A model generated the notes under the pieces. It did not search any database. It was not told where the DNA came from and was given only the letters and a program-made list of their open reading frames with translations. From a virus: DNA of 21,259 nt. Of this stretch, positions 3,595-14,020 are shown piece by piece. The DNA lies in IMG/VR virus record IMGVR_UViG_3300021519_000087, positions 1 through 21,259 of that record; one strand, written 5' to 3'. Each line of letters starts with the position of its first letter. Within the stretch, counting starts at the first letter, position 1. The translations under genes and the position numbers were made by a program.

Positions 3595-4225
3595 TTTCTT
3601 TAGTGGGCGTTATGGGTTCAGGGGAGGGTTCAGGGGTAGCCGTAGGCTCTACCTTTGCCAGATTGGCAACGGCCTCCGCAGCTCTCCGGGCTTCTCGAAC
3701 TTCCTCCATAATCTTTTCTTCCTCGGAAGTTAGGATGGAAACATCGGCGCCTTTGCTGATGGCGAAAGCCGAACTCATCCAAATCGCCTGACACTCCGGC
3801 ATCTCCCATGCGCGCTTTTCCTCGATGCCGTTAGCAACCAGATTGCACACAACCGATAAGGGCCAAGGCACCCCGCCTCCGTTACCTCCAGATTGCTTAT
3901 CTGGTTTATCCCAAAACTTAGGCCAATGTCCAACCAGGATGTAATCGGAGAACCGTTTTAGGATGGCCTCAAACTTGGCCGGCTGAGAGTTAAGCCGGAG
4001 GATACGCCATTTGTCCCGCCATCCAATGTACCCGATAGGTTCCTCGGCGCACACTTGCAACGCGACGATCAGGTCAACTGGGGTCACTCCGCGGTGGCCC
4101 ATGACCAGGGGAGAGTTTAACGCCATCAATCTTACCCGGTACTTAAGGCAGAATGGCCAAACAAAACGACCCAAGAATTTAACTCGGGACGGGTCGAAGT
4201 AAGCGTTTAAGAAGCGTTCGTCCAC
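3587..4225 (-). CDS. Hypothetical tail-assembly protein (212 aa), GTG start
   Basis: The frame starts with GTG at 4225, directly after a 7-bp hairpin, and begins MDERFLNAYFDPSRVKFLGR. The N-terminal 150 residues are rich in Trp, Arg and Leu and look like a compact helical domain. The last 50 residues are an Ala/Glu/Arg helix followed by a Pro/Thr/Glu tail (TATPEPSPEPITPTKENG). It lies between the putative tail-tube gene and the tape-measure-like gene, where long-tailed phages encode tail assembly chaperones (G and GT in lambda). I cannot confirm that homology. The next gene is in the frame a +1 shift would reach and has its own ATG, so the classic -1 frameshift product is not supported. Confidence 0.72.
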   Translation of the reverse strand: MDERFLNAYFDPSRVKFLGRFVWPFCLKYRVRLMALNSPLVMGHRGVTPVDLIVALQVCAEEPIGYIGWRDKWRILRLNSQPAKFEAILKRFSDYILVGHWPKFWDKPDKQSGGNGGGVPWPLSVVCNLVANGIEEKRAWEMPECQAIWMSSAFAISKGADVSILTSEEEKIMEEVREARRAAEAVANLAKVEPTATPEPSPEPITPTKENG

Positions 4226-4228
4226 TTC

Positions 4229-4247
4229 CCCGATTTAGTCAATCGGG
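4229..4247 (-). promoter_or_regulatory. 7-bp hairpin just before the GTG start at 4225
   Basis: On the minus strand CCCGATT-GACTA-AATCGGG is a perfect 7-bp stem with a 5-base loop. It ends three bases (GAA) before the GTG of the 212-aa gene and lies in the 41-base gap after the putative tail-tube gene. No T-run follows, so it is not an intrinsic terminator. It may limit initiation on the weak GTG start or stabilise the end of the upstream message (inference). Confidence 0.6.
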
Positions 4248-4266: not shown

Positions 4267-4608
4267 TTAGATGTTGGTATATTCAACGCCAGTGATGGAC
4301 ACCTTAACAAACTCTTTGCTTCCGCCTTTTTCTTCAATTTTTGTAATCCATCCATTGAACGCGTGACCCGATTGAGCCGTAAAAGCCAAAGAATCTCCGA
4401 TTGAAGGCATACCGCCGGTTGCAATTCCTTCGACACTTAACTCGATTTTTTCGTCGTCATAGCGAGCGGTAATCGTTAACCCACCGCCGTCCGTAACGGT
4501 AGCCTCGTTGTTGAAACTATCAGAAATGCTATATGATTGAACGATAAGTTCAGAAACGGTACCAGTGATACCATAGAAGCAAGTGGTTCCTTTAACGATG
4601 GCGGCCAT
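4267..4608 (-). CDS. Putative major tail (tube) protein, V-like (113 aa)
   Basis: The start is set at the ATG at 4608 (MAAIVKGTTCFYGITGTVSE), not at upstream in-frame codons that lie inside the preceding gene. This ATG sits six bases after a conserved TTGCC stem-loop. The protein is a small beta-rich domain with alternating Thr/Val/Ile strands, a glycine turn (VTDGGGLTI) and a closing strand (FVKVSITGVEYTNI), the look of short tail-tube proteins. It directly follows the U-like tail terminator, matching the lambda U-V order. The product is probably made in many copies to build the tube. A decoration or other small tail protein cannot be excluded without structure prediction. Confidence 0.6.
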   Translation of the reverse strand: MAAIVKGTTCFYGITGTVSELIVQSYSISDSFNNEATVTDGGGLTITARYDDEKIELSVEGIATGGMPSIGDSLAFTAQSGHAFNGWITKIEEKGGSKEFVKVSITGVEYTNI

Positions 4609-4614
4609 ATATCT

Positions 4615-4630
4615 TTGCCCTACTTGGCAA
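4615..4630 (-). promoter_or_regulatory. TTGCC stem-loop, copy before the tail-tube gene
   Basis: The minus strand reads TTGCC-AAGTAG-GGCAA, a 5-bp stem with a 6-base loop, followed by AGATAT and the ATG at 4608. The TAA stop of the upstream gene lies one base before the stem. This is one of four copies in the window. Confidence 0.72.
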
Positions 4631-4631
4631 C

Positions 4632-5069
4632 TTAGGCCGGAGGTGGCAGAACGGTCAGAAGGTTGTACGACAAAGCCGTGGCCCAAGAGCGCTCGTCTAC
4701 CCCCTCATCTTCCGAGCCAGGGGTGACGTCGTACAGGGTGGCATCGCCGGCCGTCACGAAACGAGCCTTGAGCGTGACCAAGTCCTGCATGGCACCTGCG
4801 GCCGCGGCGCATCTTGCCCGGTGATCTGTTAGGGTCGTGTCGTCGGCATTCGAAAATAGGGTAATACGAACGGAGCAATCGAAATTGCCCAAGCCTTCAG
4901 GCAGGTCGCTGGGAGTCCGAGCTGAGTCGCAAAGGACAATGGCCTTTGGTAGCACGTTAATCTCACCGCTGTCCCCGGTATAGATGGCTACCCCGGTGAG
5001 TCCTGTCTCGGCGCTAAGGTGAGTGTCGAGTACGGCCTCGACGATGTGGCGTATGGATTTGGTTCCCAT
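4632..5069 (-). CDS. Putative tail terminator / tail completion protein, U-like (145 aa)
   Basis: The protein begins MGTKSIRHIVEAVLDTHL and has a mixed alpha/beta pattern: an N-terminal helix, strands around IYTGD and AIVLCDSAR, and central strands (FDCSVRITLFSNADD) followed by a helix (ARCAAAAGAMQDLV). This layout and the length resemble lambda gpU (131 residues), which caps the tail tube and joins head to tail. The position between the Z-like gene and the tail-tube-like gene is the same as in lambda. The start lies three bases after the upstream TAA (TAACCAATG), with no SD. The assignment rests on synteny and general pattern, not on a diagnostic motif. Confidence 0.6.
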   Translation of the reverse strand: MGTKSIRHIVEAVLDTHLSAETGLTGVAIYTGDSGEINVLPKAIVLCDSARTPSDLPEGLGNFDCSVRITLFSNADDTTLTDHRARCAAAAGAMQDLVTLKARFVTAGDATLYDVTPGSEDEGVDERSWATALSYNLLTVLPPPA

Positions 5070-5072
5070 TGG

Positions 5073-6035
5073 TTATTTGTTGTTAAATTTTTTGGTGTCC
5101 CTGTCTAACATTTGTCGAACGTCAGCGGCCATACGTTGCATGGCTTGAGCATAGAGTATTTCTTCAAGTCCTACGCGGGAGGCAACATCGTCGTTATTCC
5201 CAATCATGTTCCCTATCATCAAATTGACTTGTTTTTCAATGGAACTGAATGAGTGATAATTGTTACCGTTAAACCGTTTTACATAACCCGCAACATTCTT
5301 TCGTCCAAAGGTTTTATCGACGCCTTTCTTTTTAGGCATAGGCAAAGAAGTCATGACGTTCCACCATGCGGATTTAAGCCGGCCGACATGAAGCTGTTTG
5401 CGTTGAATAAAATCTTTAATCTGGCCTTTATTTTCAACAAGGAATTTACCGAGGTAATTGCCCCTCATCCTGCTTACTTGTGTTTTGCCTCTACGGCTTT
5501 TGTTTATAACTTTAGAATGTATTTCATCCATTGCTGTTACATATCCAGCACCATACTCATTTTGCGTAGATGCAGAATGAGCAAAGTAGTTTGATGCTTT
5601 ACCAAATGCCCGGTTGTCGTCGGGATCCATAACGATACCTTGGGCTATTTTATTGTTTAGGCTAACCCCCTTGAGAGAGGAATGATTTTTGATGTTTAGA
5701 AACGTTGCCTTGTCCCTGGTCTTAGCAGCGTAAGAAAGTCGGTTAAGCAATATGCCTACGGTTGCTTTGCTCTTATCGTTAGCGGCCGTAAAAATGCTAT
5801 TAATATCACGAGCAATTGCCCGGTTACCGACCAACTCGGCTTGCTTTGTCATACCGCTACCGCCGCCAGCTTCAAACGGAGGGGTATAGTTGATGGCATC
5901 GCGGCAGACCAATGCAGCTTGCTTGAGAATTACATACTCCATTGTTTCATGGGTATCGATGGAATACTGAACCAGCGCTTTAAGGAATTTCTCCTTGGTG
6001 GCCGGGTTAAGATAAGCTCGAACCGTGAAACTCAC
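5073..6035 (-). CDS. Putative neck / minor tail protein, Z- or gp10-like (320 aa)
   Basis: The frame starts with GTG at 6035, four bases after the TAA of the upstream gene, and has no SD. The N-terminal part has a helix with Lys/Gln/Ala (EYVILKQAALVCRDAINYTP) followed by a proline and a Gly-rich segment, the pattern of HK97 gp10 and lambda gpZ neck proteins, in which a long helix precedes T-P-x-x-x-G. The C-terminal half is strongly basic and Asn-rich, with a final helix around EILYAQAMQRMAADV. At 320 residues it is longer than lambda Z (192). The predicted role is joining the tail to the head at the neck. The 5073-5560 part is AT-richer than the rest. Confidence 0.6.
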   Translation of the reverse strand: MSFTVRAYLNPATKEKFLKALVQYSIDTHETMEYVILKQAALVCRDAINYTPPFEAGGGSGMTKQAELVGNRAIARDINSIFTAANDKSKATVGILLNRLSYAAKTRDKATFLNIKNHSSLKGVSLNNKIAQGIVMDPDDNRAFGKASNYFAHSASTQNEYGAGYVTAMDEIHSKVINKSRRGKTQVSRMRGNYLGKFLVENKGQIKDFIQRKQLHVGRLKSAWWNVMTSLPMPKKKGVDKTFGRKNVAGYVKRFNGNNYHSFSSIEKQVNLMIGNMIGNNDDVASRVGLEEILYAQAMQRMAADVRQMLDRDTKKFNNK

Positions 6036-6041
6036 GGCGGC

Positions 6042-6419
6042 TTACTGGCTGTCGTCCATCACGACGAGGGTGATCCAAGCCGAACCAGGCTTAAAAGTCT
6101 GGGAGTTAATGCGGACGGTCTTACCGCCGGCGACAATCTTCTTGCCGATACCCAAAGAGGCAATGGGCGACCCCGAGGCCAGTAGGGCCGCGGATGCCCC
6201 ATTAGACCCATCTGGGAGGCTCCAGGAGGCCGTTACAGCGGGAAGCCTTACCGTGTGCTGTATGCGGTCACAAAACCCCCCTGCCTCAAAGACCTGAGTA
6301 GCGACCGGGTCGGAAATCATGCACATGAAAGTGATGGCCCCCGCGTTGCAGGAACCCGTCACCCCGAAGTCTGCTACAATCTCCTTGGAGTCGGCTTGGA
6401 ATTCAGAGTAGAGGCTCAT
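6042..6419 (-). CDS. Putative head-tail joining protein, FII-like (125 aa)
   Basis: The open frame extends upstream into the coat gene, but the start is best placed at the ATG at 6419 (MSLYSEFQADSKEIVADFGV). This ATG lies after the coat gene terminator and seven bases after a TTGCC stem-loop, and the sequence turns from basic shadow to a normal protein there. The mature sequence is beta-rich and Gly/Ala/Ser-rich and ends in a strand plus acidic tail (WITLVVMDDSQ). Its size matches lambda FII (117 residues), and it sits between coat and the Z-like gene as FII does. It has no enzymatic motif. A decoration protein is the main alternative. Confidence 0.6.
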   Translation of the reverse strand: MSLYSEFQADSKEIVADFGVTGSCNAGAITFMCMISDPVATQVFEAGGFCDRIQHTVRLPAVTASWSLPDGSNGASAALLASGSPIASLGIGKKIVAGGKTVRINSQTFKPGSAWITLVVMDDSQ

Positions 6420-6426
6420 CCTAACT

Positions 6427-6442
6427 TTGCCCTGTTTGGCAA
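6427..6442 (-). promoter_or_regulatory. TTGCC stem-loop, copy before the FII-like gene
   Basis: The minus strand reads TTGCC-AAACAG-GGCAA, followed by AGTTAGG and the ATG at 6419. The loop starts with AA and ends with G as in the other copies. Unlike two of the others it does not abut the stop of a gene; it follows the coat terminator by 13 bases. Confidence 0.72.
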
Positions 6443-6455
6443 AACGAACAGGCAC

Positions 6456-6479
6456 AAAAAAGCCCCCGGTTATGGGGGC
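6456..6479 (-). terminator. Intrinsic terminator after the coat gene
   Basis: On the minus strand GCCCCC-ATAACC-GGGGGC forms a perfect 6-bp GC stem and is followed at once by six T residues. It starts 26 bases after the coat stop, a classic intrinsic terminator. It probably lowers transcription of downstream tail genes relative to the coat gene; partial read-through is needed unless a promoter lies between it and 6419. Confidence 0.88.
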
Positions 6480-6505
6480 CAGTTTGAAGCCCTTGCGGGC
6501 GGCGA

Positions 6506-7375
6506 TTAGGCCGTGGTGAACTTGGTGAGGCTCGTGGCGCGACCGACAGAGGCACCAAAGAGGAGCGTGGCGATGACGTTGTAGAAGCCCGAGGAGTCTT
6601 GGCCCATGAGAACCTGAATCGAAAGGCCGGTCTGAGGATCGGTGGCGATAGCGGAATCGTAGCCTGGGATTTCGGACAGAGGAACCGATGCGGCGCAAGC
6701 GATTGCGTCTGGGCCACAAGCAAATCCGGCAAGGGATTCGCTGTTCGTTGGGAGGGACGTCCATTGATTGACGTTCATACCAGCGAGGGTACCGAACTTA
6801 CCGGAGGTGATGACACCAGCACCAAGGCCAGCGGCCGCGATGATCGAGGAGTCAGCGAGCAAACCGTTGAGGTAAGCGCTGTTCAGAACGAGGGCGTAAG
6901 GGCCAGGAGCCTTGGCGGTATCGAGGACACCTTTAGCGGTTACCAATTCAGCGTAGCTGAGGGCGGCACCCGTGTTGGTCGTCGAAGCGTAGTTAGCAGT
7001 CGTGATGAGGCCGCCGATTTCAGCGAGGCACTTTTCAGCGATAGCGTTAGCGGCGGTAGGCACGAAGCTGTTAATCAGCATAGGCATTCCGTACGACTTA
7101 ACATTAAGAGGAGTGAACTTGGAGACGACCTTGAAGTGCTTCAGGGTGACGGTGGCGGCGGTGACCGTCGCGTCGTCTTGCGTAGCGTATCCGGATGCAC
7201 CGAATTCGGTAGCAGTCGAGACGCCGATGAGGGGAACCTGGACAGCGATACCCGCTTGGCTTTCGAGGGCCGAGAAGATGGAGCTGAACGAGCTGAGGAC
7301 GGGCAACTTGCCCTTGATGCTTTCGAGGACAGCTTCAGCGAGAACGGCTGGAGCTGCAGTGATGGAATTAGCCAT
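6506..7375 (-). CDS. Major capsid (coat) protein, HK97-fold type (289 aa)
   Basis: The protein is low in charge and rich in Ala, Gly, Ser, Thr and Val, as usual for a major capsid protein. It begins MANSITAAPAVLAEAVLESI. A strand-rich segment (VQVPLIGVSTATEFGASGYA, residues about 46-65) precedes a Thr/Val-rich strand pair and a helix, resembling P22-type coat proteins. A later segment (APGPYALVLNSAYLNGLLAD) looks like the conserved P-domain helix region of such coats. It follows the scaffold gene and is followed by a strong terminator. The leader (CACAACCCCTCACTACTC then AT-rich) has no SD although this should be the most expressed gene. Family assignment is by pattern and synteny. Confidence 0.8.
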   Translation of the reverse strand: MANSITAAPAVLAEAVLESIKGKLPVLSSFSSIFSALESQAGIAVQVPLIGVSTATEFGASGYATQDDATVTAATVTLKHFKVVSKFTPLNVKSYGMPMLINSFVPTAANAIAEKCLAEIGGLITTANYASTTNTGAALSYAELVTAKGVLDTAKAPGPYALVLNSAYLNGLLADSSIIAAAGLGAGVITSGKFGTLAGMNVNQWTSLPTNSESLAGFACGPDAIACAASVPLSEIPGYDSAIATDPQTGLSIQVLMGQDSSGFYNVIATLLFGASVGRATSLTKFTTA

Positions 7376-7407
7376 GATTATTTATGAGTAGTGAGGGGTT
7401 GTGAAAA

Positions 7408-7848
7408 TTAGAGAGCGGCCTTGACGATCGCGGCCTTATTGGCGGCGTAGAATTCGGAACGCTCTTTGCTGCCAACAGGCAGGGAAAGGAAAGTAGCCAG
7501 GACATCGACGGCTTCCGCGGAGGGCTGGCTATCAGATGGGCTTAACTGAACAGGGGATACGCCTACCGATGCGGCAATCTTAGCGGCTTCCTTGGAGGCC
7601 GAGACTTTGCCGGCTTCAAGGGAGGAGATTTTGACTTCGAGATCAGCGGAGAAAGCCACGGCCTTTTCGAGGGCGGCGGCTAATTCAGAAACCTTAGCGT
7701 CCTTAGCGGAGGCATCCAGTTTAAGCGCTTCCAATTCGGAGGCGGCTCCAACGGTTAGTTTTTCAACTGCTAAACGTAAATCGTCACGTTCGGCGGTAAG
7801 GCCGGAGACGATGCTGATGCTCGATTGCAACTGTTCTTCGATTGTCAT
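7408..7848 (-). CDS. Capsid scaffolding protein (146 aa)
   Basis: The start is the ATG at 7848 (MTIEEQLQSSISIVSGLTAE), four bases after a TTGCC stem-loop; the longer open frame upstream overlaps the protease gene. Residues 1-85 are an almost continuous coiled coil rich in Ala, Glu, Leu, Lys and Ser, followed by a Ser/Pro/Gln linker and a short C-terminal helical domain (SKERSEFYAANKAAIVKAAL). This is the typical design of scaffolding proteins that direct procapsid assembly and bind coat through a basic/helical C-terminus. It lies between the protease and coat genes, as Nu3 does in lambda, but as a separate gene rather than nested in the protease. Confidence 0.8.
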   Translation of the reverse strand: MTIEEQLQSSISIVSGLTAERDDLRLAVEKLTVGAASELEALKLDASAKDAKVSELAAALEKAVAFSADLEVKISSLEAGKVSASKEAAKIAASVGVSPVQLSPSDSQPSAEAVDVLATFLSLPVGSKERSEFYAANKAAIVKAAL

Positions 7849-7852
7849 ATCT

Positions 7853-7868
7853 TTGCCCAAGTTGGCAA
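7853..7868 (-). promoter_or_regulatory. TTGCC stem-loop, copy before the scaffold gene
   Basis: The minus strand reads TTGCC-AACTTG-GGCAA, followed by AGAT and the ATG at 7848. The TAG stop of the protease gene directly abuts the stem, so the whole 20-base intergenic space consists of this element. Confidence 0.75.
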
Positions 7869-9026
7869 CTAAGCCTGCTTTACCAGCGTGCCAGGGATAA
7901 CCCATAACTTACAGATGCCGTTAGGATCGATGTCGCCGGCTACGAGTCCACATCCGCGAGGGCCACGGTAGTAAACGCAATTCTGGCAAAGAAGTCCTTC
8001 GTTAGCAAACGGAGAGACAGGAGCGTAATGGGCGCCTTCTGGGCTTGCGTCCTGACTGTATTCGCCAAACGTCTCGACGACATCACCGGCGCAATCAATC
8101 ATCTCACGCTGGCGAGGGGTAAGCATTTCAAGCACGCTATCCTCGATTTCAAGGGCTTTAATTTTAACCAGGCTATCGATGGCCTTGGCTGACTTAAGGG
8201 CAGTGCCAGCAATGGATGAACCGCCGATTGGGGAACCTGCGAAACTTGAGAGGGCTTGCGAGAATGAGTCAGCCAGTCCAGTAACTAACCCAAGGCTTGC
8301 GGCCTGACGGCCTGAGAATGATTGGCCTTCCATCGAGTCGGCGGCGACCATCTTACGCTTCATGTTTACGGCGGCCTTAAAGTCGGCGTGGATTGTATCG
8401 ACGCTGGCTTGGAGGTTAGACACTTGGTCGGTGGTAAGGCTCGTACCTTCGATGCCAGCCCCTTTGTAGATACCGCTTTTAATGACGACCATTTTAATAC
8501 CCTGCATTTCAGCGGCCTTGGAGTAGTCAGGTATGGCCATATAAACGCCAACCGAGCCAACGGAAGAAGAAGGAGAAGCGACGACGCGATCAGCAGCTGA
8601 TGCCAACCAATAGGCGGCCGATGCCGCCTCGCTATCGGTATAGGCCATCGTCGGGCGTTGGATGCCGCGAATCTTGTTAGCCAATTCTTCCACCCCGGTA
8701 ACGGTGCCACCAGGGGATGATACTTGAAAAGCAATCTTGGTAACTTCTGGCAAGCCGAGCATGGAATCGATTTGAGCGCTGATGTCGTTCACATCTACGG
8801 CGCCCATCATCTTTTCAATAGGGGTAAGGTTTTTACCAATCACGCCAGCAATCGGAATGACTCCGACATTGTCGACGATGTAAGGCTGAGGGGTTTCTCC
8901 GAACAGTTTTGAAAGGACATCGGTGAAGCCGAACTTGTCGCTAAGGTCAGCGTGGGCCTTGGCTTTAGCCGGGTCGATTAGGATTGGCTCTCTGCCAGAA
9001 AGGCCGTTGGTAAGGAAGCGGGACAT
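7869..9026 (-). CDS. S49-family (SppA/ClpP-like) head maturation protease with C-terminal Cys cluster (385 aa)
   Basis: This is an S49-type serine protease in the place of lambda gene C, which processes capsid components. The start is the ATG at 9026, four bases after the portal stop; an in-frame TTG at 9050 lies inside the portal gene. The core shows SPGG (residues 104-107, oxyanion region), a Ser in EAASAAYW (S136) and a Lys in YKGAG (K188). The 52-residue Ser-Lys spacing is the one known for Bacillus subtilis SppA (S147/K199). Residues 260-345 are a linker. The C-terminus carries four cysteines, C347-x2-C350-x8-C359-x12-C372, followed by LWVIPG, suggesting a metal or iron-sulfur site not needed for the protease fold. 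Confidence 0.87.
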   Translation of the reverse strand: MSRFLTNGLSGREPILIDPAKAKAHADLSDKFGFTDVLSKLFGETPQPYIVDNVGVIPIAGVIGKNLTPIEKMMGAVDVNDISAQIDSMLGLPEVTKIAFQVSSPGGTVTGVEELANKIRGIQRPTMAYTDSEAASAAYWLASAADRVVASPSSSVGSVGVYMAIPDYSKAAEMQGIKMVVIKSGIYKGAGIEGTSLTTDQVSNLQASVDTIHADFKAAVNMKRKMVAADSMEGQSFSGRQAASLGLVTGLADSFSQALSSFAGSPIGGSSIAGTALKSAKAIDSLVKIKALEIEDSVLEMLTPRQREMIDCAGDVVETFGEYSQDASPEGAHYAPVSPFANEGLLCQNCVYYRGPRGCGLVAGDIDPNGICKLWVIPGTLVKQA

Positions 9027-9030
9027 AGGG

Positions 9031-10527
9031 TTAGGGTTGGTTAGGGTCAACGGGAGTCGGAGGCAGATCTAAATTTTCTGCCGCAGCTTCTGAGATTTGG
9101 GAATTGTTTTGGCCTTGCTGTAGCCAGTTGAAGCCTGGCTTGTAAAGCATCCATACAGGTATCTTGGCCTTCTTTGCTTCATCAATCAGGAAGGCCATAT
9201 CACCAGCGCGCTTCTGAGTCTCTTGCTTAAAGTCGAGGCCCCTTTGGCTGTATAACTCGCTCATCGACAGCAGGCCCATCTCAACGTCGTTACGATCGTT
9301 AGCGGCGTCGCGGCCTGCATCAACTGTCACACTCTTGGGAGTCGTCCAGCTTGTTTGGTTCCACTTTGGATCATCAGGCAATTCACCCGCGGCAATAGCC
9401 TGGCCAATGATATAACCCCAAGTCGGCTGACAAAGTGATTCAATCAAGATAGTTTGATACTTGCCGAACACTCGCCCGGCCTTGGCGGTGATTAGCCGAA
9501 CCGTAGCCCCGCCAATTTTGGAAGCGTCACCGACGAACTCGTAAGGCAAGACGCCTTGGGCGATGTCGCGCTCGAGCGCTGCAAGGAAGCCAGTGAACGC
9601 AGGTGAGGGACGGTTAGAGGTAAATGATTGGAAGTCCTCCCCGGGTTCAAGGGCTAAAATTTTCCCACCCATGCGGGCGGCGATGTTCTCGTAATTGGAA
9701 CCTGTACCCAACTCGCTGGCCATGTCGCTATCGATGAAACCACCGGCTTTCTTAATGACGCGAGTAACGTCGGCCGAGTCTTTAACGGCCAACTTTTCCA
9801 AGGCCAAGATTTCCATCTCATCCTGAATACTATTGATTGAGTGTTGCAGTAGAGGAACTCCACGAGCGCCTGATGCGTACTCGTGGTCGACGATGTGCAT
9901 CATGGACTGAGCCAGAATCTGGCGGTCAGTGCCGTCTGACTTGTAAACATTGAAGGCAAGTAATTCGCCATAAGGGCCGAACACTGCGCCGTCGTGCATA
10001 CCGTCAGGCACCTTGCCGTTTAACGGATCACCGACTCTATGTCCTTCCATCAATTGCAACTTTGGCTCGTCATTACCGTTACGCACCTTGGCGACGAAAG
10101 CGTCACCGTCTCGCACCATTGCCCGGAGCATAATGCTTTGAACCTGGTTGAAACTAAATCGGTTAGTGATATCGATACGCTGGCATTTCTCCGCAAAGTA
10201 AGCCTCATAGGCTTTAGAGTTTTCAGCGCTCTCCGCGTGGCTTTGCACCTTGATGCCATCACCGACGCTATAAAGGCACATGTCCGCAAGGATCTGCTTG
10301 AACAGGCCGCTGTTCCGTTCGGCCCATCGACAACGCTTGACCATATAGAGCCGGTCATACGGCTTTAGGTCGCGACGTAAATCGGTTGGGTTGCTACCGT
10401 AGATGCTCCGGCGCAAACGAGTTTGCCCGACTGAATTCCAACCACCCTCCGAAGCCTGGGGCTTGAGCGTTGCTGGCTTCTTGGCCGCAGGCTTTTTAAT
10501 CGAGGGCTTCTTGAGTTGGCGGGCCAT
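9031..10527 (-). CDS. Portal protein, lambda gpB family (498 aa)
   Basis: A basic Lys/Pro-rich N-terminal tail (residues 1-25) precedes a conserved core. RSIYGSNPTDLRRDL, the segment CRWAERNSGLFKQILADMC, and MLRAMVRDGDAFV match the lambda-type portal pattern (R-x-x-x-N, then a strand with R-D-G-D-A-F). Residues around GVLPYEFVGDASKIGGATVR resemble the wing/clip helix of these portals (lambda: P-Y-E). Twelve copies would form the channel through which DNA is packaged. The length is close to lambda gpB (533). It follows the gpW-like gene with the leader TAACCACCTT and no SD. The C-terminus is Pro/Asn/Gln-rich and ends just before the protease start. Confidence 0.9.
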   Translation of the reverse strand: MARQLKKPSIKKPAAKKPATLKPQASEGGWNSVGQTRLRRSIYGSNPTDLRRDLKPYDRLYMVKRCRWAERNSGLFKQILADMCLYSVGDGIKVQSHAESAENSKAYEAYFAEKCQRIDITNRFSFNQVQSIMLRAMVRDGDAFVAKVRNGNDEPKLQLMEGHRVGDPLNGKVPDGMHDGAVFGPYGELLAFNVYKSDGTDRQILAQSMMHIVDHEYASGARGVPLLQHSINSIQDEMEILALEKLAVKDSADVTRVIKKAGGFIDSDMASELGTGSNYENIAARMGGKILALEPGEDFQSFTSNRPSPAFTGFLAALERDIAQGVLPYEFVGDASKIGGATVRLITAKAGRVFGKYQTILIESLCQPTWGYIIGQAIAAGELPDDPKWNQTSWTTPKSVTVDAGRDAANDRNDVEMGLLSMSELYSQRGLDFKQETQKRAGDMAFLIDEAKKAKIPVWMLYKPGFNWLQQGQNNSQISEAAAENLDLPPTPVDPNQP

Positions 10528-10534
10528 AAGGTGG

Positions 10535-10789
10535 TTAGATGATGCTGTTATTCCAATTCGTATTTACGACAGACTTGCGACTTCCGTAAGTGCTGGGGTC
10601 TAACTGAGATAAAGCAAACATAGCCTCGGCCAACATCTCTTTGGGTGGCATTGCAAAAGACTTTGATGCGGACGAGCCGGAATCGGAGTAACTCATCAGG
10701 GTTTTTCCCTCCGTGATCAGCGTTACGGCCTTCGATTTAATAAGGAGTAATTCGTCCTCAGTCAGTCCAATGAATAAGCCTTGAGCCAT
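10535..10789 (-). CDS. Small head-tail connector, gpW-like by position (84 aa)
   Basis: The start is set at the ATG at 10789 (MAQGLFIGLTEDELLLIKSK) because it lies four bases after a TTGCC stem-loop; an in-frame ATG four codons upstream is inside that element. The protein has an N-terminal helix (TEDELLLIKSKAVTLITEG), a short Ser-rich hairpin segment (KTLMSYSDSGSSASKSF) and a second helix (PKEMLAEAMFALSQLDP). This helix-hairpin-helix order is that of gpW, the 68-residue protein that seals packaged lambda heads. Its position between large terminase and portal is exactly that of W. Sequence identity to gpW is not obvious, so the family call rests on order, size and helix pattern. Confidence 0.62.
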   Translation of the reverse strand: MAQGLFIGLTEDELLLIKSKAVTLITEGKTLMSYSDSGSSASKSFAMPPKEMLAEAMFALSQLDPSTYGSRKSVVNTNWNNSII

Positions 10790-10793
10790 AACC

Positions 10794-10809
10794 TTGCCCA
10801 TTTTGGCAA
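10794..10809 (-). promoter_or_regulatory. TTGCC stem-loop, copy before the gpW-like gene
   Basis: The minus strand reads TTGCC-AAAATG-GGCAA, followed by GGTT and the ATG at 10789. A TAG lies one base before the stem, as in other copies; here it is not the stop of a recognised gene but is in frame with the large terminase. Confidence 0.72.
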
Positions 10810-13489: not shown

Positions 13490-14020
13490 TCACGATGTAG
13501 GCGGGATGACGCGGGTGGGCTTCTTCCCGGTGTGCTTGTGTTGCTTGCTGTTCACATGAGGAAATAATCCAATCGCATCGAGGTCGACGCGGGTTTGGAT
13601 TCGCTTGCCCATCTTCCTCACCTGCTCGTGACTGCAATCGTACATCTTCCCAATGGCCCGAGACGATAGACAACCGGGCAACGATAGCGACCAACGGATC
13701 AGCTCGACGTGACGACGGAAGCCATAGTTGTTCGTGTAACTCAGCGCATCTATAAATCCCTTTAGCATCACGGCCACATGATCGCGTGAGATGAATGCAT
13801 CCGTCTCTGTCCGCAGCTCCTTGGTGTCCGATGTCGACCAAGCCTTGTGGTTTGGGTTGATAGCAAAGATGTGCTTGATAGGCGCCATCTCGCGGTAAGG
13901 CAGAACACCGGCCTGCCTCAAGGCTTCTTGTTCCTTCTTGCCCAGTGAGTAATACCATTTGTCGAATGACTTGGCATCGGATGCCGGTGCATCGACGGTA
14001 TAGACTGAGAGACGAGCCAC
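13490..14020 (-). CDS. Helix-turn-helix protein, possible late regulator (176 aa)
   Basis: The frame starts with GTG at 14020 (MARLSVYTVDAPASDAKSFD); no ATG fits near the N-terminus. Residues 1-105 are a mixed alpha/beta domain with many aromatic residues (FDKWYYSLGKKEQEALRQAG) and no known motif. Residues about 113-142 (LPGCLSSRAIGKMYDCSHEQ, then VRKMGKRIQ) form a plausible helix-turn-helix of the sigma-region-4/transposase type, where the second helix reads the DNA. The C-terminus is His/Lys-rich (NSKQHKHTGKKPTRV) and may help bind DNA. The gene sits between the replication block and the packaging genes, directly before a palindrome, so a role as late-gene regulator or packaging helper is a reasonable inference. 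Confidence 0.72.
   Translation of the reverse strand: MARLSVYTVDAPASDAKSFDKWYYSLGKKEQEALRQAGVLPYREMAPIKHIFAINPNHKAWSTSDTKELRTETDAFISRDHVAVMLKGFIDALSYTNNYGFRRHVELIRWSLSLPGCLSSRAIGKMYDCSHEQVRKMGKRIQTRVDLDAIGLFPHVNSKQHKHTGKKPTRVIPPTS

Follow-up and report, generated by a model that had tools for sequence, protein, structure and literature searches.

What is the role of a short palindrome that stands four times in one phage genome, each time just before the start of a virion gene? It was seen in an IMG/VR record that comprises 21,259 bases (the window) and has its genes on the minus strand. The pattern TTGCCN6GGCAA occurs exactly four times in it, as against a mean of 0.03 in shuffled sequences, none of which reached four. 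The preliminary description had given the positions, loops and gene starts of the copies and had called their number far beyond chance, and all of this proved exact. Read on the coding (minus) strand, each copy is TTGCCAANNNGGGCAA, and the loops are AAGTAG, AAACAG, AACTTG and AAAATG. The element of the tail-tube gene, TTGCCAAGTAGGGCAA at 4615-4630, takes up 4609..4630 together with the 6 nt to the ATG, and the gene itself (113 aa) runs over 4267..4608 from a start at 4608. The FII-like gene (125 aa; 6042..6419, start at 6419) is preceded by TTGCCAAACAGGGCAA at 6427-6442 and 7 nt (6420..6442), the scaffold-like gene (146 aa; 7408..7848, start at 7848) by TTGCCAACTTGGGCAA at 7853-7868 and 4 nt (7849..7868), and the gpW-like gene (84 aa; 10535..10789, start at 10789) by TTGCCAAAATGGGCAA at 10794-10809 and 4 nt (10790..10809), all on the minus strand. 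The four elements are exact matches that are kept in relatives, for the tail tube at the orthologous start, and the four genes that they mark are open reading frames with orthologues. The names gpW-like, scaffold, FII-like and tail tube follow the earlier naming and the gene order; family profiles recognised the portal, the head maturation protease, the major head protein and the small terminase.

The protease stop codon adjoins the scaffold copy, and a single base separates the tail-tube copy from the stop of the tail terminator; the tail-tube start follows the tail-terminator stop by about 23 nt, and the gpW-like start follows the TerL stop by about 110 nt. The portal, protease, coat and tail-terminator starts of the window lack the element, as had been noted. 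When two mismatches were allowed, the palindrome gave 23 sites as against 13.2 expected, and because this excess is only mild, the window has no clear copies beyond the four exact ones.

Related phages and their probable host

With the coat protein as query, 59 related loci (L125-L183) were retrieved, mostly at 52-99% identity, and a large terminase alignment yielded 80 viral loci, of which a few lie on contigs of the coat set; about 140 related contigs were compared. Among deposited or known phages, none came closer than about 25% TerL identity. The terminase also matched three contigs from MAGs, which bear the labels Opitutales, Opitutae and Verrucomicrobiota, which suggests that the phage clade infects Opitutae-type bacteria (Verrucomicrobiota), an assignment based on MAG bins, in which binning errors are possible.

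A linear two-part motif at orthologous starts

The gpW-like, scaffold, FII-like and tail-tube genes of these contigs, whose orthologous starts were assigned by homology and independently of the motif, mostly carry TT(n)CCA[AT]-N5-GCA[AT] on the coding strand, usually 4-8 nt before the start codon and with a rigid CC-to-GC offset of 9 nt. An unbiased gapped-motif search ranked CCA-(9)-GCA first, with 77% of 219 distinct leaders as against about 0% of 348 leaders of other genes. Under a strict criterion, which required TT, CC and GCA and allowed CC-to-GC offsets of 7-10, the offset was 9 in all 164 distinct cases; the TT, CC and GCA columns are invariant partly by construction, because the criterion demanded them. 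The same criterion found no element in the leaders of TerL (0/71), portal (0/47), protease (0/83), coat (0/60), g25 (0/50) and g28 (0/42). Near starts, 218 matches lie on the coding strand and 1 on the other, and the distance to the start varies from 4 to 12 nt, or up to 18 for g29. A further downstream gene of about 105 aa (MSCNTVTFKRG...) is marked in many relatives. The idea of an element fixed at the starts of a subset of virion genes thus holds across the clade: the marked genes are the same in relatives, most genomes having the element at gpW, scaffold, FII and tube, and none having it at portal, protease or coat under the strict criterion. Close relatives keep the palindrome and more distant ones carry the looser element at the same starts. 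We infer that the perfect palindrome of the window would be a lineage version of two half-sites, and not the working feature.

The stem is not maintained

RNA-phage coat-protein operators exemplify the hairpins by which phages control translation. They stand at the ribosome-binding site of specific phage genes, as the element does here, and the window copies resemble small hairpins of this kind. The preliminary description had proposed such an operator, in which a protein would bind a stem closed by six loop bases, and had named covariation of the stem pairs as its test. Folding of each of the four window copies does give the predicted 5-bp stem, and close relatives keep it, but shuffled versions of these copies fold about equally well, so that the copies have z-scores from +0.4 to, at best, -1.5. 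Pairs that are broken in relatives are not compensated: the paired share of cells is 71.8% as against 71.5% after shuffling, a single double change was seen in 170 cells, and all five pairs are complete in only 7.5% of 106 distinct elements. The C of GCA is constant while its partner varies between T, G, A and C, and the second C of CC stands opposite C, G, A or T. Whole leaders fold hardly better than shuffled ones (mean z of -0.55 for gpW, +0.25 for scaffold, -0.3 for FII and -0.21 for tube). Hairpin operators need a conserved stem, which the element of this clade lacks. Because the stem does not covary in relatives, we regard the hairpin operator as refuted on the test named for it, and leave it only the slightest probability.

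The element belongs to the phage clade

We scanned IMG/VR for TTCCAAN5GCAAN4AAATG. The 41 matches in the clade included 36 at clear gene starts, and 4 of the other 5 stand at the same tail-tube start, where no in-frame stop lies close upstream; among 79 matches in unrelated viruses, only 4 were start-like. The exact consensus of the window was rejected as a general IMG/VR signal: apart from those in a close relative (L123), nearly all its matches were intragenic and away from starts. A host signal was likewise rejected, the motif being about as frequent as in the control in three MAGs. Loose matches numbered 14 in about 380 kb from candidate hosts, and the open reading frame near which one of them lies looks spurious. 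A second form of the motif exceeded the control in parts of the host family, yet not at gene starts (about 380 kb), and was discarded as well. Because gene starts in unrelated viruses and in the candidate host DNA are nearly devoid of it, the element is, judging from these scans, a trait of the phage clade and not of its host.

Marked starts are those that are not coupled

The element marks starts at least 20 nt past the upstream stop codon. Median stop-to-start gaps of the marked genes are 113 nt for gpW, 23 (or about 365) for scaffold, 80 for FII and 24 for tube; the portal, protease and g25 genes, with a gap of about 4 nt, are coupled and unmarked. The tail-terminator gene occurs in both arrangements, and the element is present in 13 of 14 distinct uncoupled leaders (gap of 20-33 nt or, with additional sequence in between, about 960 nt) as against 1 of 42 coupled ones (p=1e-10, an optimistic value because related contigs are not independent). 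Since different element types occur before this gene, TTGCCAGCCCGAGCAA in L195 and L200 and CCAAAGCGGGCAA in L162 and others, the sequences suggest that the tail-terminator element was gained more than once. The extra sequence of about 960 nt lies between g25 and the tail terminator (L167, L170, L178, L223, L226, L255 and others), and the element then precedes the tail terminator.

The rule has exceptions. The coat and g28 genes are uncoupled yet unmarked, and g29 is coupled, yet carries an offset-8 variant. The early genes of the window are unmarked. The coat leader is a second, different kind of uncoupled start; in the window (7376-7407, minus strand) and also in relatives it is unstructured and nearly free of G (1% over the last 20 nt ahead of the start). 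The g28 leader of the window is structured, with a 7-bp hairpin, CCCGATT-GACTA-AATCGGG, at 4229-4247 (minus strand) before a GTG at 4225 (z -2.45), and most relatives have other hairpins there (AGCCC-TGCAA-GGGCT, CCCC-GCAA-GGGG) after a conserved TTGAC. A conserved g28 hairpin was rejected: hairpins were seen in single sequences, and folding of the alignment gave no consensus.

Some genomes (L166, L176, L226, L246 and others) have about 370-440 nt between the protease stop and the scaffold start. The scaffold element is kept before the ATG even where the upstream frame runs open through it. Because the scaffold frame is open through the element in these genomes, translation of the scaffold may begin internally at this ATG, in a manner that partly recalls lambda C/Nu3.

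An RNA-processing site would also agree with the link to uncoupled starts, the coding-strand orientation and the absent structure; at such a site an endonuclease would cut the polycistronic late mRNA and provide every uncoupled cistron with a separate 5' end and a stability of its own. We know of no nuclease with a comparable two-part, rigidly spaced site, which counts against processing, and we consider it improbable.

Copies within a genome resemble each other

Within a genome, the elements before different genes resemble each other more closely (0.668) than after shuffling of the genomes (0.594, 0/1000), whereas the adjacent 10 nt flanks show no excess (0.288 versus 0.286). The likeness persists when a single genome stands for each subclade (5-9 genomes; p<0.0005 over the whole element), single columns being weak in this test with only five representatives, and the spacer, too, is more alike than chance between copies of one genome. 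L250, for example, carries TTGCCAAT...GCAG at all four core starts. The likeness is not absolute, since L137 mixes element types, and L127, like L137, has different types at some genes. In one subclade (L138/L140/L141/L144/L157), the FII and tube genes have TTGACC...GCC(C)AAGG(T/G)TAAGA-like leaders, related to the main element and different from it, and the gpW gene has CCAAGGTTAAG-like leaders.

Either a shared reader or repeated copying would explain the likeness within genomes. Copying would be expected of a recombination linker, that is, of short conserved junctions for gene swaps among relatives, and both the shared spacer and the different element types of L127 and L137 fit such a linker. 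Against it stand the base-specific conservation and rigid offset, retained while the flanks diverge, and the absence of the element from coupled junctions and from the coat junction; we hold it to be very improbable.

Shine-Dalgarno use

Leaders of the candidate hosts show little Shine-Dalgarno (SD) signal (0.197 as against 0.184 in a control stretch), and SD-like 4-mers occur in 0-31% of the gpW, scaffold, FII and tube leaders. The earlier remark that the phage hardly uses SD sites is borne out by most marked leaders and by the likely hosts. The host 16S rRNA keeps CCUCC and its 3' end is GGATCACCTCCTTT; the element core is not complementary to it, which sets the element apart from an SD sequence, and one 16S of the candidate host family contained no bipartite complement to the element. 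SD sequences are scarce in some Verrucomicrobia (PMC10783764), and the non-SD initiation regions of Bacteroidota are A-rich or Kozak-like leaders (PMC6847099). The systems described there resemble the present one in combining normal anti-SD ribosomes with little SD use (PMC6847099, PMC10783764), and the coat and early leaders of the phage are of the same G-poor kind. Non-SD regions consist, however, of single favoured bases and a lack of structure, whereas the element of the clade is a rigid two-part motif at some genes only.

Proposed function

We propose, giving it about an even chance of being right, that this is a clade-specific, start-associated, SAS-like element that would act in translation initiation through a putative factor. 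The oriented, linear two-part motif, placed at the ribosome-binding position of late virion genes with uncoupled starts, would act in the mRNA as a stand-in for the SD sequence: a putative phage-encoded or ribosome-associated factor would bind it and recruit the 30S subunit. Such recruitment would serve starts that cannot depend on reinitiation, in hosts of a group that makes little use of SD pairing. We favour a translation element because of the position at the ribosome site, the orientation, the retention before open frames, the link to uncoupled starts and the SD-poor hosts. The translational role proposed in the preliminary description fits as a linear two-part start-associated sequence and fails in its hairpin form, translation being suggested by position, orientation and coupling. 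However, the spacing to the start (4-18 nt) is loose for a ribosome site, the coat, g28 and g29 genes are exceptions, and the likeness within genomes is explicable by copying. A more specific form is put forward tentatively: an SD-independent initiation signal, in which a phage-specified factor would read the rigid two-part mRNA motif and steer ribosomes to late cistrons that are uncoupled, while the reader would change in step with its sites from one lineage to another.

The half-sites lie about one helical turn apart and form a perfect dyad in the lineage of the window, as might be expected of a DNA-level site, either for a phage transcription regulator or as an unusual promoter, that would give each uncoupled late cistron a near-leaderless transcript. 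Uncoupled cistrons would profit from it, the FII copy has a terminator immediately upstream, and the ESAS of Cluster K carry putative promoters (PMC11373665). The terminator, an intrinsic-terminator-like hairpin with a T-run at 6461..6480 (minus strand), was found by a terminator scan between the coat gene and the FII element and is the same in the relatives examined; it is a neighbour and not part of the element, and may set coat-to-tail expression. The element itself was rejected as an intrinsic terminator, as a T-run is absent after all four copies and the scan finds the separate one at 6461-6480. A sigma-70 promoter was also rejected: hexamers of the -35/-10 type 16-18 nt apart gave 4 sites in the region as against 5.1 expected, a test that addresses the sigma-70 class only. 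In addition, the flanks are unshared, the orientation is strict despite nearly symmetric half-sites, copies 4 nt before the ATG would place a transcription start downstream of the motif inside the gene, and a DNA site gives no reason for the absence at early genes. The DNA-level site also draws on a conserved protein with a helix-turn-helix-like C-terminus that precedes TerS; on balance we consider such a site rather unlikely. This 176-aa protein (13493-14020, minus strand), conserved in the clade at 50-64% identity, has no Pfam or PHROG match; its helix-turn-helix-looking C-terminus differs between subclades, and it is a candidate late regulator. As the reader of the element it was set aside, its AlphaFold model being too weak (pLDDT 59) and a family match lacking.

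Comparison with start-associated sequences of Cluster K

The closest known system to the translation element proposed here is the SAS of Cluster K mycobacteriophages (PMC3203893), the function of which is still unverified (PMC12699233). Both are short repeats, 3-9 bp before the start codon in Cluster K, that stand in one orientation at several genes per genome, are fixed to particular gene families across the cluster, and are rare elsewhere and absent from the host. The Cluster K SAS has the consensus GGGATAGGAGCCC, with an AGGAG core able to pair with 16S rRNA (PMC3203893), whereas the element of the clade is CCA-(9)-GCA without an SD core; for the Cluster K ESAS, pairing is not supported and the consensus differs between subclusters. 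SAS and ESAS stand at non-structural genes of phages that infect mycobacteria, whereas the element stands at virion genes of phages that probably infect Opitutae, and the coupling rule is not described for SAS in the Cluster K literature cited here. The element works like the Cluster K SAS but is not a member of it.

How start codons are chosen in SD-poor bacteria and their phages is an open question, for which this clade gives a defined cis-signal with constraints at the level of single bases. Its unmarked coupled genes serve as built-in controls, and its tail-terminator gene provides a natural experiment. The clade also suggests that start-associated sequences, described from a single cluster of mycobacteriophages, may form a broader class of regulatory elements in phages.
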